The notes under the pieces are model-generated. The model was not told the origin of the DNA and did not search any database. It saw only the letters and a list, made by a program, of their open reading frames with translations. From positions 1 to 42,899 of the IMG/VR virus record IMGVR_UViG_3300003323_000237: a stretch of 42,899 bases of DNA. One strand, written 5' to 3'. Both the position numbers and the translations under genes were made by a program. Source of the stretch: a virus. Shown here piece by piece: positions 453 through 42,899 of this stretch (position 1 is its first letter; each line of letters opens with the position of its first letter).

Positions 453-1067
453 ATGAACATATTCAATAACGATCCTAAAGTAAAAGAAGAACTCTTATCC
501 CTGCTGAAGCACCATCAAGAATTAGATGCCTTTGTGCAAGGGGCATGGCTAACCTCAGAGCAAACTGGAGACATATTTAAGGGATGTTTCTATGGCTGCC
601 TTATGCAGAAAGATACAAATCCATTAAAAGAGTTTTCAGATAAATATGGAGTGGATTTATGGTACTGCCATCTAACTGAAAGAATATTTGAGAATTTACC
701 ACAAGGAAAGTTTGAAGAATTTCCTTATAAAGCTATAGAGGCTCTTCCACTAAGATTTAATTTTAGTAAATTCAAATCTTTATGGTTTAAAACAACTTTA
801 TTAAAACAGCTAGAATGGGTTACGGATGATAGTATTAGAGCTATTCTTCTAAATACTTCTAAGCTTTTTGATGTTCCGTTCGATGAAATAGATTATAAAG
901 CAGCAAAGTCAGCAGCATGGTCAGCATGGTCAGTAGCAAGGTCAGCATGGTCAGCATGGTCAGCAGTAAGGTCAGCAAGGTCGACAAGATCAGCAAAGTC
1001 GGCAAGATCAGACCACTTTGTATTTTTAGCTGAACTTCTTTTTAAACTTATAAAAGAAAATGATTAA
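453..1067 (+). CDS. Phage protein with degenerate SAW/SAR tripeptide repeats (204 aa)
   Basis: Residues 1-140 resemble, from memory, a widespread phage/bacterial family of unknown function with a GC..GC cluster (here GCFYGC, 44-49) and an 'IFE.LP......FP..A..A.P' segment (78-100). Residues 149-186 are low complexity: Ser-Ala plus Trp, Arg, Lys or Thr, encoded by roughly 9-base units related to TCAGCATGG. A hydrophobic/charged tail follows. The stop overlaps the next start (TAATG). Families with alternating Ala/Trp/Ser repeats are known from many phages, but no function is established. The repeat could change length by slippage or recombination. Start chosen at the only upstream ATG, after an ACTTTTAAA leader. 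Confidence 0.85.
   Translation: MNIFNNDPKVKEELLSLLKHHQELDAFVQGAWLTSEQTGDIFKGCFYGCLMQKDTNPLKEFSDKYGVDLWYCHLTERIFENLPQGKFEEFPYKAIEALPLRFNFSKFKSLWFKTTLLKQLEWVTDDSIRAILLNTSKLFDVPFDEIDYKAAKSAAWSAWSVARSAWSAWSAVRSARSTRSAKSARSDHFVFLAELLFKLIKEND
897..1010 (+). repeat. Degenerate 9-bp tandem repeat inside a coding region
   Basis: Imperfect tandem units related to TCAGCATGG / TCAGCAAGG encode SAW/SAR/SAK tripeptides (residues 149-186 of the host ORF). Because the unit is a multiple of three, copy-number change would keep the reading frame and alter only repeat length. Confidence 0.85.
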
Positions 1068-39041: not shown

Positions 39042-39616
39042 CACGAATTTATACAATCATTATTTTAATAGCCCTCCTCTGCTTAGGTGGGGGAACTATT
39101 ACTATTCTTTATAAAAAATGGCGGGCTGCTGAGGAACAAGTTAAAAATATGGTAGCACTGAATGGAAAGAAGTTTAAAGAACTAGAAGTTTATAAGAACA
39201 AGTACAATGAGATTGTTTATAAAAATGAGGCGGTCGAGTTAGAAAGTAAAAGTGTTAAAAAGCTGGTGAAGAATGACCAATTGAAAGAACTTAAAAGTTT
39301 TGATAAACCGTTAAAAAATAATTTCAACAATTTAAAATCGGCTACAACTTTAAAAATCGAAATACCTTTGAACTCTACCTCTACTTTTATAAAACCAGAT
39401 AGTACCTTCAATATTGATAACGGTAGTGGAAGAATCGCGCACACTGAAAAAGGATTTCAAATTTTTATAGATGATACTATTAAAACTTCATTAACTGTTA
39501 TCAACTATTGGCATAGAAAATGGTTTTTAGGAGCGAAGAAATGGAACAGTGAAGCGACTAGCAGTAATAAAAAATTAATTATTACAGAGTTGAAAACTAT
39601 AGTAGTGAAGAAATAG
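39038..39616 (+). CDS. Spanin-like membrane-anchored protein (192 aa)
   Basis: Single N-terminal membrane segment (residues 4-25, 'IYTIIILIALLCLGGGTITILY'), then a coiled coil ('WRAAEEQVKNMVALNGKKFKELEVYKNKYNEI' region, about 29-95), then a beta-rich tail containing 'INYWHRKWFLGAKKWNSEATSSN'. The tail resembles proteins found in Bacteroidetes phages and prophages at this position. N-in/C-out topology with coiled coil suits an i-spanin-type role in outer-membrane disruption (inference). The 3' end overlaps the convergent minus-strand gene by 20 bases. Confidence 0.68.
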   Translation: MTRIYTIIILIALLCLGGGTITILYKKWRAAEEQVKNMVALNGKKFKELEVYKNKYNEIVYKNEAVELESKSVKKLVKNDQLKELKSFDKPLKNNFNNLKSATTLKIEIPLNSTSTFIKPDSTFNIDNGSGRIAHTEKGFQIFIDDTIKTSLTVINYWHRKWFLGAKKWNSEATSSNKKLIITELKTIVVKK

Positions 39617-40031
39617 AAGATTCCTCTCTCTTCAATCTCAATATTATTTTTTTCATCATTAATTGTCTAGTTGAAGACCAAACAACCTCTACTTTGTGTC
39701 TTTTAAACATAGTATCGATAATTTTAAGTACAATCTTACCTTCTACTTTTCTTGCTGCGCCGCCGGGGAATTTTTTAAGTTCAAAATCTTTTCGACTGCA
39801 CTCAACGTATACCACTAGTTTTATTTTATTCATTGTGGCCCTTACGAGTTCTTTTCTAAATCGTACATGCCCTTGAAGCACTGATCCGTATAAATCAATA
39901 CCGGATTTTCGCTCGATACAAAAAGAGTTTTCAAGGAGAATAGTTGAGTAGTCGCCTACTAACAGCTTCTTACGTACCACGTTGCCAGTAAATGCGGGTA
40001 GCTGCTCACGAGTGTCCACTATAATTTTCAT
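39597..40031 (-). CDS. ERCC4-domain nuclease (144 aa)
   Basis: Structure-specific nuclease fold of the XPF/ERCC4 type: 'IIVDTREQLP' (D6), 'LLVGDYS' (D27), and the signature 'IERKSGIDLY' at residues 39-48 (E40, R41, K42), followed by 'RFRKELVRA'. No helix-hairpin-helix is present. Such small nucleases in phages probably cut branched DNA during replication or recombination. Last gene of the minus-strand recombination operon; its end overlaps the convergent spanin-like gene. Three bases separate it from the upstream gene. Confidence 0.9.
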   Translation of the reverse strand: MKIIVDTREQLPAFTGNVVRKKLLVGDYSTILLENSFCIERKSGIDLYGSVLQGHVRFRKELVRATMNKIKLVVYVECSRKDFELKKFPGGAARKVEGKIVLKIIDTMFKRHKVEVVWSSTRQLMMKKIILRLKREESSISSLL

Positions 40032-40034
40032 TAT

Positions 40035-40343
40035 TTAAAACGGCAAATAGAGGTTAGGATCTAATCCGTTATCTTCTAACAATTTTATCAACCTGGCATT
40101 ATCCCTTTCTAAATCCATAATTCTTAGGTGCATAGAGCTTCTATAATTCTTAGGCCCGTTATCGGGGTAGAAAATATCCTCCCACATTTCTGCCCTTTCC
40201 CTGTAGGTTTGTTTACCTTTATAATCATTAGGCATTTCGTCAAGCAAGTGTTTGAAATCGTGCATCAGTCTTCTACCCGCTTTTATAACTAGTTCCAAAG
40301 TCTGTTCTCGAATTTCAAAAATATCCCGATTAAAATTTTCCAT
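40035..40343 (-). CDS. Small helical protein in recombination operon (102 aa)
   Basis: Mostly helical and charged: 'NRDIFEIREQTLELVIKAGRRLMHDFKHLLDEMP', then a 'YRERAEMWEDIFYPD' block, and a coiled-coil end 'LRIMDLERDNARLIKLLEDNG'. No family recognised. It is preceded by a structured RNA leader and followed three bases later by the ERCC4 nuclease gene, so it may be a partner in DNA processing. Confidence 0.65.
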   Translation of the reverse strand: MENFNRDIFEIREQTLELVIKAGRRLMHDFKHLLDEMPNDYKGKQTYRERAEMWEDIFYPDNGPKNYRSSMHLRIMDLERDNARLIKLLEDNGLDPNLYLPF

Positions 40344-40357
40344 TATTAAATACTTAG

Positions 40358-40435
40358 AAGACGCGCGGAGTATAACCTCCCTGTTTCTTAATAACTGCTA
40401 AACCAATAAAACAGCTATTTAAAACTACGCGTCTT
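40358..40435 (-). promoter_or_regulatory. Structured three-helix leader before the 102-aa gene
   Basis: In minus-strand RNA, AAGACGCG (40435-40428) pairs perfectly with CGCGTCTT (40365-40358). It encloses a 6-bp hairpin (40414-40409 with 40386-40381) and a 4-bp GGAG/CUCC hairpin (40380-40377 with 40370-40367, 6-nt loop). The start codon lies 14 bases downstream. The 101-base gap 40344-40444 contains nothing else. Could be a translational operator or protein-binding site. Confidence 0.45.
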
Positions 40436-40444
40436 GACCAGTGA

Positions 40445-41329
40445 TTAAACTACTACAAATTTTTCAAGTTTTTCCTTATATTCTTCTAATTCCTTTTTAG
40501 GAAACTTGTCGTGTAATTTGGAAAGTTTAACTCCCTCCTTAGCTGCTGCCTTAATAGCGGCCTGATAAATTTTGTGTTGCTCTGCAATAGCTTTTAAAGC
40601 TTCTTTGCCTTTTGTTGATCCCATTTTCAATTGTTTTAAATTATTGTCGGCTGTTTTAATAGGTACAACCGTTTGACCTGGTATTATTGCTTTACCATAC
40701 TTAGAAAAACAATATAAAAGGAGGTCTAATTCCTGTTTAGCATATAGTTCCTCGTTAGCATACCTTCTAACATCCATTATGTAAATATTATGCGGGGGCT
40801 GTTTTTGAAGGCCTACAAAGTAACAATTTTTACGGCCTTTACCTATCTTATATGTAAGTCCCTGCTTTACATAATCAAATTCTAAAGCCTTTGCAATGAA
40901 CACACCCTCGCTGGAGCATGACGTGGATTTCCAATCTAAAACAGTAGAAGTGCCTTCCTGCTCTACGTCTATAATGATTGCTACTTTTACACCGTTAATA
41001 AAAACGTACTCTTTTAATTCGCGATTTGAGTTTTTTAGAAGGGATAAAAGAACTTTGTTTTTTCTAACGTTTTCGCAAATAGATAAAATTGCCTGTCGTT
41101 CGGCGACTACTAAATTAGAATAGTCGGCAGCCCTGAATGATTCATCCTCTACAAATTGTAAATGTTCGTGAAGCACTCGTCCAAATACTAAATAGGTTTC
41201 ATCCCCGCTAAATTGTTTTAACCCTAGTAGAAACGTTTTAAATGCTCCCATTGATGAATGAGAGGTATTCCCTTCAGGTATCGGCCCCGTGATTAAATTT
41301 TGAGAAAGCAGTATATTTAATAAACTCAT
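40445..41329 (-). CDS. PD-(D/E)XK exonuclease, RecE/Cas4-like (294 aa)
   Basis: Visible catalytic set: H54 in 'LVFGRVLHEHLQF', D121 in 'VAIIIDVEQEG', 'DWKST' at 132-136 (D132, K134) and the 'Y..Q...Y' helix at 153-160. This matches phage exodeoxyribonucleases of the PDDEXK_1/exodeoxyribonuclease VIII type, which resect dsDNA ends for strand annealing. The C-terminal 60 residues are Lys-rich and helical. Encoded downstream of the ssDNA-binding gene and separated from it by a terminator, so expressed at a lower level. Annealase not identified. Confidence 0.88.
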   Translation of the reverse strand: MSLLNILLSQNLITGPIPEGNTSHSSMGAFKTFLLGLKQFSGDETYLVFGRVLHEHLQFVEDESFRAADYSNLVVAERQAILSICENVRKNKVLLSLLKNSNRELKEYVFINGVKVAIIIDVEQEGTSTVLDWKSTSCSSEGVFIAKALEFDYVKQGLTYKIGKGRKNCYFVGLQKQPPHNIYIMDVRRYANEELYAKQELDLLLYCFSKYGKAIIPGQTVVPIKTADNNLKQLKMGSTKGKEALKAIAEQHKIYQAAIKAAAKEGVKLSKLHDKFPKKELEEYKEKLEKFVVV

Positions 41330-41338
41330 AAGCTTTAT

Positions 41339-41367
41339 AAAAAAGGACAGCCGTAAATTAGCTGCCC
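41339..41367 (-). terminator. Rho-independent terminator between ssDNA-binding and exonuclease genes
   Basis: In minus-strand RNA: GGGCAGC (41367-41361) pairs with GCUGUCC (41351-41345), one G-U pair, 9-nt loop, followed by six U (41344-41339). Lies in the 65-base gap between the two genes. Confidence 0.82.
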
Positions 41368-41394
41368 TTCTATCTTTTAAACAAAATGAAATTT

Positions 41395-41967
41395 TTATTT
41401 CTTTCCCTTCGCTGGAACTTTAGCCGCAGGTTTTGCAGTTTTCTTTTTCGCGGTAGTAGCTAATAAGTACTCTTTAGTGTCCGCGATTAGCCCTTGAGTC
41501 TTTTCAGGCAACTCGTTAAACACGTTTGCATCGAAATCTTCAGGAGTTAGAAATAAGCAGTAAGAAGGCTCATTTGATTTCTTAGGCTTAACCCCTTTTG
41601 CAAGGCCGCTAATATTTGTAATGTTTGCATACCCATTATTGTGCTCTATTGTAATAGAAGCAGGTTTGCCGATTAAATCAGACGGATCAAAGTTAGCAGG
41701 GTCTTTAACCATTAGCCAGGCCTTCAACGTTTTAGCAAAATTGGAATTTGGACTTGCAGAGTAGGTGAATTTTTGGAATACTACTACGTTATCCCCTTTA
41801 GAAGTTTTTTCATCAACTAAGTGGAAGTAAACACGGCATTGACGAACTTCTTTTTCCTCTTCTTTAAAGGTGGTAAGTTGTGTGCCTAAATCAATAAACT
41901 TGCAACAAACTGCATTATGCACGCCTTCGGGGGCGAGTTCCCATTCAGGTTTTGGAATTTTAGCCAT
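41395..41967 (-). CDS. ssDNA-binding protein candidate, DUF669-like (190 aa)
   Basis: Residues about 10-120 read as an OB-fold-like beta domain: 'PEGVHNAVCCKFIDLGTQ', 'RQCRVYFHLVDEK', 'VVVFQKFTYSASPNSNFAKTLKAWL', 'LIGKPASITIEHNNGYANITNISG'. The pattern is close to phage proteins annotated DUF669 or phage ssDNA-binding. The C-terminal tail is Lys/Ala/Pro-rich (KKKTAKPAAKVPAKGKK) rather than acidic. It probably coats ssDNA for the RecE-like nuclease and polymerase. First gene after the minus-strand promoter at 42009-42038, and followed by a strong terminator, implying high expression. Confidence 0.8.
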   Translation of the reverse strand: MAKIPKPEWELAPEGVHNAVCCKFIDLGTQLTTFKEEEKEVRQCRVYFHLVDEKTSKGDNVVVFQKFTYSASPNSNFAKTLKAWLMVKDPANFDPSDLIGKPASITIEHNNGYANITNISGLAKGVKPKKSNEPSYCLFLTPEDFDANVFNELPEKTQGLIADTKEYLLATTAKKKTAKPAAKVPAKGKK

Positions 41968-42111: not shown

Positions 42112-42141
42112 TTGCAGTTCCAGATTTTTGATATACCTTTG
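42112..42141 (+). promoter_or_regulatory. Plus-strand promoter, TTG-N19-TACCTTTG
   Basis: TTG at 42112-42114, exact 19-base spacer, TACCTTTG at 42134-42141: full match to the Bacteroidetes consensus. Predicted start near 42147, giving a leader of about 336 bases before the next start codon. Confidence 0.82.
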
Positions 42142-42146
42142 AATCA

Positions 42147-42410
42147 TCAAACAGGGTAGACGGCCCCACAAGTAGTGAAAGCCCGCGGTTGCGGTATCGA
42201 GCTTGAGTCAGAAGTACTAATAAGGTATCAAGGCCCTTATAACTTTATTGAGATTGAGGTGGAAGCAAACCACTTTGGCGAAAGTTCAAACGCTGTGAAG
42301 CATTAGACGAATTGAAGAACCCCAAAAATAACGCATGCCTCAGAACTTGTTTGAGATAGTCAATGGCAATACCTAGAAGGTTTAAAACTTCTACATGATA
42401 GCTGAGGAAA
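42147..42410 (+). ncRNA. Structured leader RNA upstream of the hammerhead ribozyme
   Basis: No plausible ORF, but many local helices. They are: 42183-42186/42191-42194 (CCGC/GCGG); 42220-42225/42235-42240 (ATAAGG/CCTTAT); 42259-42262/42270-42273 (GTGG/CCAC); 42273-42276/42281-42284 (CTTT/AAAG); a GTGA-tetraloop hairpin at 42292-42301; and a three-way junction closed by CCTCAG/CTGAGG (42338-42343/42402-42407) enclosing TTGA/TCAA (42351-42363) and TAGAAG/CTTCTA (42374-42379/42388-42393). Not matched to a known class by eye. Ribozyme cleavage downstream would release it as a separate RNA of about 275 nt. Confidence 0.55.
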
Positions 42411-42471
42411 TTAAAAATGTATGCAATAAACAGTTGCACTGATGAGTCGCAGAATCGACGAAACATTTTAA
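42411..42471 (+). ncRNA. Type III hammerhead ribozyme
   Basis: All core elements are present. Stem III: AAAATGT (42414-42420) pairs with ACATTTT (42463-42469), extended past one bulged A by TT/AA. Cleavage triplet GTA (42419-42421), predicted cut after A42421. Stem I: TGCAA/TTGCA (42422-42426/42434-42438), 7-nt loop TAAACAG. Core CTGATGA at 42439-42445. Stem II: GTCG/CGAC (42446-42449/42456-42459), 6-nt loop CAGAAT. Core GAAA at 42460-42463. Open-ended stem III makes it type III. The next start codon is 12 bases beyond the element. Both loops are available for the tertiary contact known to speed natural hammerheads. Confidence 0.95.
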
Positions 42472-42482
42472 CTCGCAAGGTT

Positions 42483-42899
42483 ATGAAATCATTCAAAACA
42501 CTAGCTACAAAAAAATCAATCGAATTAGCGGTTCGCAATAATGATGTAACTGCACTTTTCGCAATGTTCAAAGGCAATCGATCTAAAGTATTTGAAGCTG
42601 TTAGCGGCATAATGATTAAGAAGCTATCGAAACGCGCTTATGATCTGGCTTACAGCAGACAACATAAATTTACTTATCGTCCCGAAAAACAAATTCATTC
42701 AAAACAAATACGCGCAATTCTTTTTGCAAAAGAACAGGTAAAATCAGGCTCTATTAAGACTAATTACGCGAAGACTCTTATTAAAGGCAATTTGAATATT
42801 TATTGGGCGCATCCAGTCTATGGGCATTCTGATTACAATAAGTCACTAGCTTTTGAAAACACTGAATCGAATAGAATTCTAGCCAGCAAGATTAATTCC
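42483..42899 (+). CDS. Unknown protein downstream of the ribozyme, runs off the window (139+ aa)
   Basis: Open from ATG 42483 to the last base. The N-terminal 65 residues are helical and basic ('MKSFKTLATKKSIELAVRNNDVTALFAMFKG', in parts). The rest contains 'SKQIRAILFAKEQVKSGSIKTNYA', 'NIYWAHPVYGHSDYNKSLAFENTESNRILASKIN'. I do not recognise the family. If the window ends are adjacent, the frame continues with FLIKNI and stops at base 21, giving a 145-aa protein. Its mRNA would begin at U42422 after ribozyme cleavage. Preceded by the strongest promoter match in the window, so probably early and abundant. Confidence 0.8.
   Translation, partial: MKSFKTLATKKSIELAVRNNDVTALFAMFKGNRSKVFEAVSGIMIKKLSKRAYDLAYSRQHKFTYRPEKQIHSKQIRAILFAKEQVKSGSIKTNYAKTLIKGNLNIYWAHPVYGHSDYNKSLAFENTESNRILASKINS

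Follow-up and report, generated by a model that had tools for sequence, protein, structure and literature searches.

Hammerhead ribozymes in phages and the element of the window

Phages carry hammerhead ribozymes of types I, II and III, according to a later review (PMC7761336), and the nearest precedent for the element described here is HHphage of haloviruses HF1 and HF2, published in 2011 (PMC3088659). On an early polycistronic transcript, HHphage precedes the first ORF by 13 nt; the 5' end of the mRNA has been mapped to the cut, and control by salt has been suggested (PMC3088659). Hammerheads flanking phage genes have also been described in prophages (e.g. Agrobacterium ardA), where the processing of long transcripts has been suggested as their function; cleavage by prophage-type hammerheads has been shown in vitro and in E. 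coli, and 4 of the 18 consensus hammerheads assayed in the survey were inactive, which counts against activity at the present locus (PMC3088659).

The window analyzed here is the whole 42,899-nucleotide stretch of a viral record (IMG/VR IMGVR_UViG_3300003323_000237). Like HHphage, it has a hammerhead shortly before a start codon, but in HHphage the core is altered and the host is an archaeon, whereas the window element has a canonical core and its host is probably a Bacteroidetes bacterium. Like the prophage elements, it is adjacent to a phage gene, but those are clustered inside operons (PMC3088659), whereas the window has a single hammerhead, after a promoter-proximal leader. It shares with the type III hammerheads of RF00008 (Hammerhead_3) the permutation (stem III open), the canonical core and the GUA triplet, and differs from them in its loop II, CAGAA(U), and in being encoded by phage DNA instead of a viroid or plant satellite. 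The element is thus a canonical type III hammerhead, a predicted ribozyme of a kind already known, and its position too has been described before. Its parts are:

42414-42469, + strand: hammerhead element, full-length canonical type III
42414-42420, + strand: stem III, 5' strand, AAAAUGU (model alignments, inverted repeat)
42419-42421, + strand: cleavage triplet GUA (model alignments, type III parse), scissile bond 42421/42422
42422-42438, + strand: stem I hairpin, UGCAA-UAAACAG-UUGCA (model alignments, fold)
42439-42445, + strand: core strand CUGAUGA (sequence, model alignment)
42446-42459, + strand: stem II hairpin, GUCG-CAGAAU-CGAC, with the loop CAGAA common to the viral family
42460-42463, + strand: core strand GAAA (model alignments)
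42463-42469, + strand: stem III, 3' strand, ACAUUUU (model alignments, inverted repeat)
42464-42482, + strand: spacer from core to ATG, 19 nt, at the 5' edge of the ribosome binding region (mostly 16-20 nt in the family)

The core strands, GTA triplet and three helices listed in the first-pass annotation were all found at these positions in the sequence and its inverted repeats. Stem III forms all seven of its pairs (42414-42420 with 42463-42469) and is extended, past a mismatch, by UU/AA (42411-42412 with 42470-42471); it is rich in A-U pairs, which counts against activity. Stem I has 5 bp (42422-42426 with 42434-42438), a possible additional U-G and the loop UAAACAG, and stem II has 4 bp (GUCG 42446-42449 with CGAC 42456-42459) and the loop CAGAAU. 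The A15.1-U16.1 pair is present as U42420-A42463 beside the core strands CUGANGA and GAAA, and the GUA at 42419-42421 conforms to the NUH rule for cleavage sites. Stems I and II are closed by loops and stem III is open, as in type III (61-mer fold, model alignments), and the 61-mer alone is predicted to fold into exactly the hammerhead helices.

RF00008 aligned with the element over its full length (model positions 1-54), at 47.5 bits (E 3.7e-9 in 910 nt, 4.2e-11 for the record). This score is 1 bit under the Rfam gathering score of 48.5 bits, a curation threshold rather than a structural feature, and a default Rfam scan of the window at the gathering score therefore returned no match. Fifty viral hammerheads, that of the window excluded, yielded a model that scored the element at 52.0 bits (E 6.5e-14) and matched nothing else within the 42.9 kb; no second hammerhead able to make circles was found over this length with either the Rfam scan or the 50-sequence model. 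The bare core pattern alone is present in 8 of 100 shuffles, but the E-values of the two full models bear out the earlier estimate that such an element would very rarely arise by chance.

A viral family defined by loop II CAGAA

Hammerheads of types I and III were frequent in IMG/VR in a first pattern scan. The pattern CUGAUGAG-N2..4-CAGAA-N1..4-CGAAAC was found in 88 IMG/VR contigs; together with the window (89), 71 matches fitted a type III parse, for which stems I and III must have at least three pairs; another 12 fitted type I, and 6 fitted neither type. IMG/VR thus holds at least 70 further type III hammerheads with loop II CAGAA. The invariance of the core and loop II is no evidence, because the search pattern prescribed both, and some of the stem pairing likewise results from selection, because of the pairs that the parse demands. 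The covariation of stems I and II goes beyond this requirement. The 50 distinct type III sequences other than the window gave an almost gap-free alignment, with standard pairs in 91.6% of pair cells (62.3% when shuffled), 267 cells changed on both sides (69 when shuffled) and double-sided changes in 14 of 17 pairs. Pairing reached 98% in stem I and 100% in stem II, and fell to 26–44% when the partners were slid by 1–3 columns. Since the model made from these sequences finds the window, the window element belongs independently to this covarying family. It has the loop II CAGAA(U) and its ATG lies 19 nt past GAAA, within the family range of 14–21; with regard to a possible tertiary contact between loops I and II, the first base of loop I is U in all 50 aligned relatives and in the window, in a set selected for loop II CAGAA. 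An exact search of IMG/VR for the window's own stems gave no match. No publication on the CAGAA family or its fixed spacing was found among open-licence papers.

The distance to the start codon is the constant feature of the family; the leader is not. Of the 71 type III elements, 70 have an ATG that opens a reading frame no more than 150 nt downstream, and for 59 this ATG lies 14–21 nt past GAAA (mode 18 nt), a spacing seen at 4.7% of random positions in these sequences. No same-strand ORF ends within 250 nt upstream in 47 of 68 CAGAA type III elements versus 4 of 37 other type III elements; of these 37, 31 have a gene end within 60 nt upstream, as do 108 of 178 type I elements. In the window, no same-strand ORF of at least 60 aa ends within 1.2 kb upstream. 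Since family members usually sit about 18 bases before a start codon, they probably serve to remove a long leader from the mRNA of the gene.

A relative of the element is present in a cultured phage group, in 68 Flavobacterium phage records of the elemo group (Elemovirus). In elemoA (MT497017.1), an unannotated type III hammerhead at L232:3000-3056 (66.8 bits, of the same family) lies between leftward and rightward gene blocks, with CDS 49, the first small rightward gene, directly after it; the tiny minus-strand CDS 50-53 annotated in the leader region are probably spurious. The elemo-group hammerhead and that of the window have in common the CAGAA loop, the divergent junction and the ATG directly after the element, whereas the leader sequence differs and the elemoA core reads CUGAAGA, with A at the variable position 7. 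Position 7 of the hammerhead core is not conserved. The first-pass annotation had called the setting unusual; the other viral type III elements with this loop, the cultured Flavobacterium phages and the 2011 precedent (PMC3088659) make it less so.

Other arrangements were observed in the course of these searches. Another phage type III group (L028, L039, L049, L059, L072, L074, L088, L120), with a stem III of 3–4 bp, is located between genes and before an ATG, and has a terminator-like hairpin (e.g. GTGTCTTCAAAGACAC) directly 5' of the hammerhead. Five same-direction type I hammerheads lie within 4.3 kb of one viral contig (L104:1892-6194), as if an operon were cut into single-gene mRNAs. Bacterial genomes gave 20 pattern matches, of which only a few were true hammerheads by score, with several in candidate-phyla assemblies; a Candidatus Taylorbacteria MAG contig (L233:4214-6213) has five type III hammerheads in 2 kb, several of them directly before small ORFs.

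Gene context, promoter-like site and leader

The element is located at a junction between leftward genes and a rightward gene, in the following surroundings:

39597-41967, − strand: divergent leftward genes (ORFs), one with a 45% relative in a related phage
42112-42141, + strand: Bacteroidetes-type promoter-like site, TTG (42112-42114), 19 nt, TACCTTTG (42134-42141)
42148-42421, + strand: leader RNA of about 274 nt, the predicted cut-off 5' product, from the promoter-like site to the scissile bond
42374-42393, + strand: leader hairpin UAGAAG-GUUUAAAA-CUUCUA, directly upstream of the ribozyme (inverted repeat, fold)
42483-42899, + strand: first rightward gene, truncated where the contig ends (139 aa or more, MKSFKTLATKK...)

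The gene at 42483 has a coding score of 0.096 bits per codon; in 48-codon stretches, gene frames score 0.18 ± 0.12 and wrong frames −0.11 ± 0.17. No convincing homologue of its protein was found in viral and genome collections, Pfam, PHROGs or phages, and there is no tRNA near the ribozyme. At the other end of the window, an ORF at 453-1067 (+ strand) ends in a C-terminal run of SAWSAW/SARSAR-like repeats. The terminase is closest, among annotated phages, to those of Cellulophaga phages Nekkels_1 and Nekkels_2 (39.7%), a relationship in line with a flavobacterial host. Neither hammerhead model found an element in seven related phage records sharing the capsid gene, some of which are fragments; the closest full-size IMG/VR contigs sharing this gene are 36–72% identical. 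The lack of a hammerhead in these relatives, which counts against a functional role, indicates that not all members of this phage lineage carry the element.

The promoter-like pattern lies at −288 from the predicted cut and has a background of 0.04 per 300 nt of this genome. The strong host-type promoter proposed earlier is plausible as a Bacteroidetes-type site, but the epithet 'strong' holds less well; the match is partial at −33. From this site, transcription would be expected to start near 42148. The pattern TTG ... TAnnTTTG was present between −450 and −60 in 17 of 34 leaders tested, versus 5.5% of random positions.

The ribozyme claim is independent of the leader of the window, which is about as stable in folding as its shuffles (z 0.33), has no BLAST neighbour and contains no known RNA family (Rfam). 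Homology of this leader to CTAGGAA-type or elemo-type leaders was considered and rejected: only short words are shared, and the consensus folding energy is weaker when the window is included. A stop-free frame of 48 codons at 42160-42306 (+ strand), with a possible GTG start at 42175, has a gene-like codon score of 0.07; it is not claimed as a gene, because 13% of wrong-frame stop-free stretches score equally high.

In the elemo-like relatives, by contrast, the leader shows conservation, with covariation in its last hairpin (92.5% paired, double-sided changes in 6 of 10 pairs, a covariation score reached by 0 of 500 shuffles), so the cut-off leader is a structured RNA at least in this group. 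The conserved stretch is the last ~115 nt before the hammerhead (L188, L217, L177, L161, L212, L220, L195, L201), with a covarying AAAUA-loop hairpin; it has no Rfam match in the loci scanned and is a candidate new phage RNA element. The cut might mainly serve the leader: a non-coding RNA that is structured and has a defined 3' end would be freed to act in infection, and the mRNA end would be a by-product. The gene-free leaders of 110–450 nt before many family members are consistent with such a role, as is the covarying hairpin. That hairpin is, however, absent from the window leader, which gives no BLAST match to the elemo-like leaders, has different hairpins and folds no better than shuffled sequence, and it is the distance to the ATG that is fixed across the family. 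This explanation therefore seems unlikely.

Less probable still is a regulated switch, in which a signal or the leader structure would govern the folding of the ribozyme and hence expression of the gene. The predicted minimum-energy fold of the element together with its full leader keeps stem I and rearranges stems II and III, a competition that would suit a switch and counts against simple activity; the leader-associated position and the salt control proposed for HHphage (PMC3088659) point the same way. Leaders vary between groups, though, no ligand-binding family was matched, and the canonical core and loops suggest fast, constitutive cleavage.

Proposed role of the ribozyme

A fossil or chance hammerhead-like sequence, inactive as a ribozyme, might account for the score just below the Rfam threshold, the absence of the element from the nearest phage relatives and the core pattern seen in shuffles, but it is very improbable in view of the E-value of the full model, the covarying family and the fixed spacing. 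No better placed is the idea of a coding stretch running in frame through the ribozyme from an ATG at 42417: the frame 42402-42899 is open across the element, but codons 42417-42482 score −0.17 versus 0.10 for the gene, the covarying structure belongs to a family whose ATG comes after the element, and cleavage would take away the ATG at 42417.

Sequence, covariance models and comparative data thus support the original proposal that a phage 5' leader here contains a complete type III hammerhead whose cut is at 42421/42422. The reading that we favour, with a probability of roughly 0.77 on these data, is that a functional hammerhead generates the 5' end on the first mRNA that a rightward phage operon produces. 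Transcription from a host-type promoter at the divergent junction would begin near 42148 and, once 42414-42469 had been transcribed, the RNA would fold and undergo self-cleavage at 42421/42422. A 2',3'-cyclic phosphate would be left on the departing 274-nt leader, while the hairpin-capped 5'-OH end of the mRNA would consist of stem I, core and stem II, with the last core base 19 nt before the ATG, approximately at the start of the ribosome footprint. The coding mRNA, uncoupled from its leader, would be expected to have a 5' UTR that is short, constant in length and free of a 5' triphosphate, and this may affect mRNA stability or translation.

A broader and more doubtful proposal, which we put forward tentatively, is that many Bacteroidetes phages open an operon with a module made up of a host promoter, a structured leader RNA, a type III hammerhead and, at ribosome-footprint distance, a start codon, in which the ribozyme would both free a trans-acting leader and give the mRNA a 5'-OH end that the 5'-end decay enzymes of the host could not use.

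Why phages keep hammerheads has been a standing question since at least 2011. The fixed distance to the ATG, the gene-free promoter-proximal leaders and the copy in a cultured phage make the idea that these ribozymes set mRNA 5' ends directly testable. If it is true, ribozymes, rather than host nucleases, would set the ends of operon mRNAs in phages.
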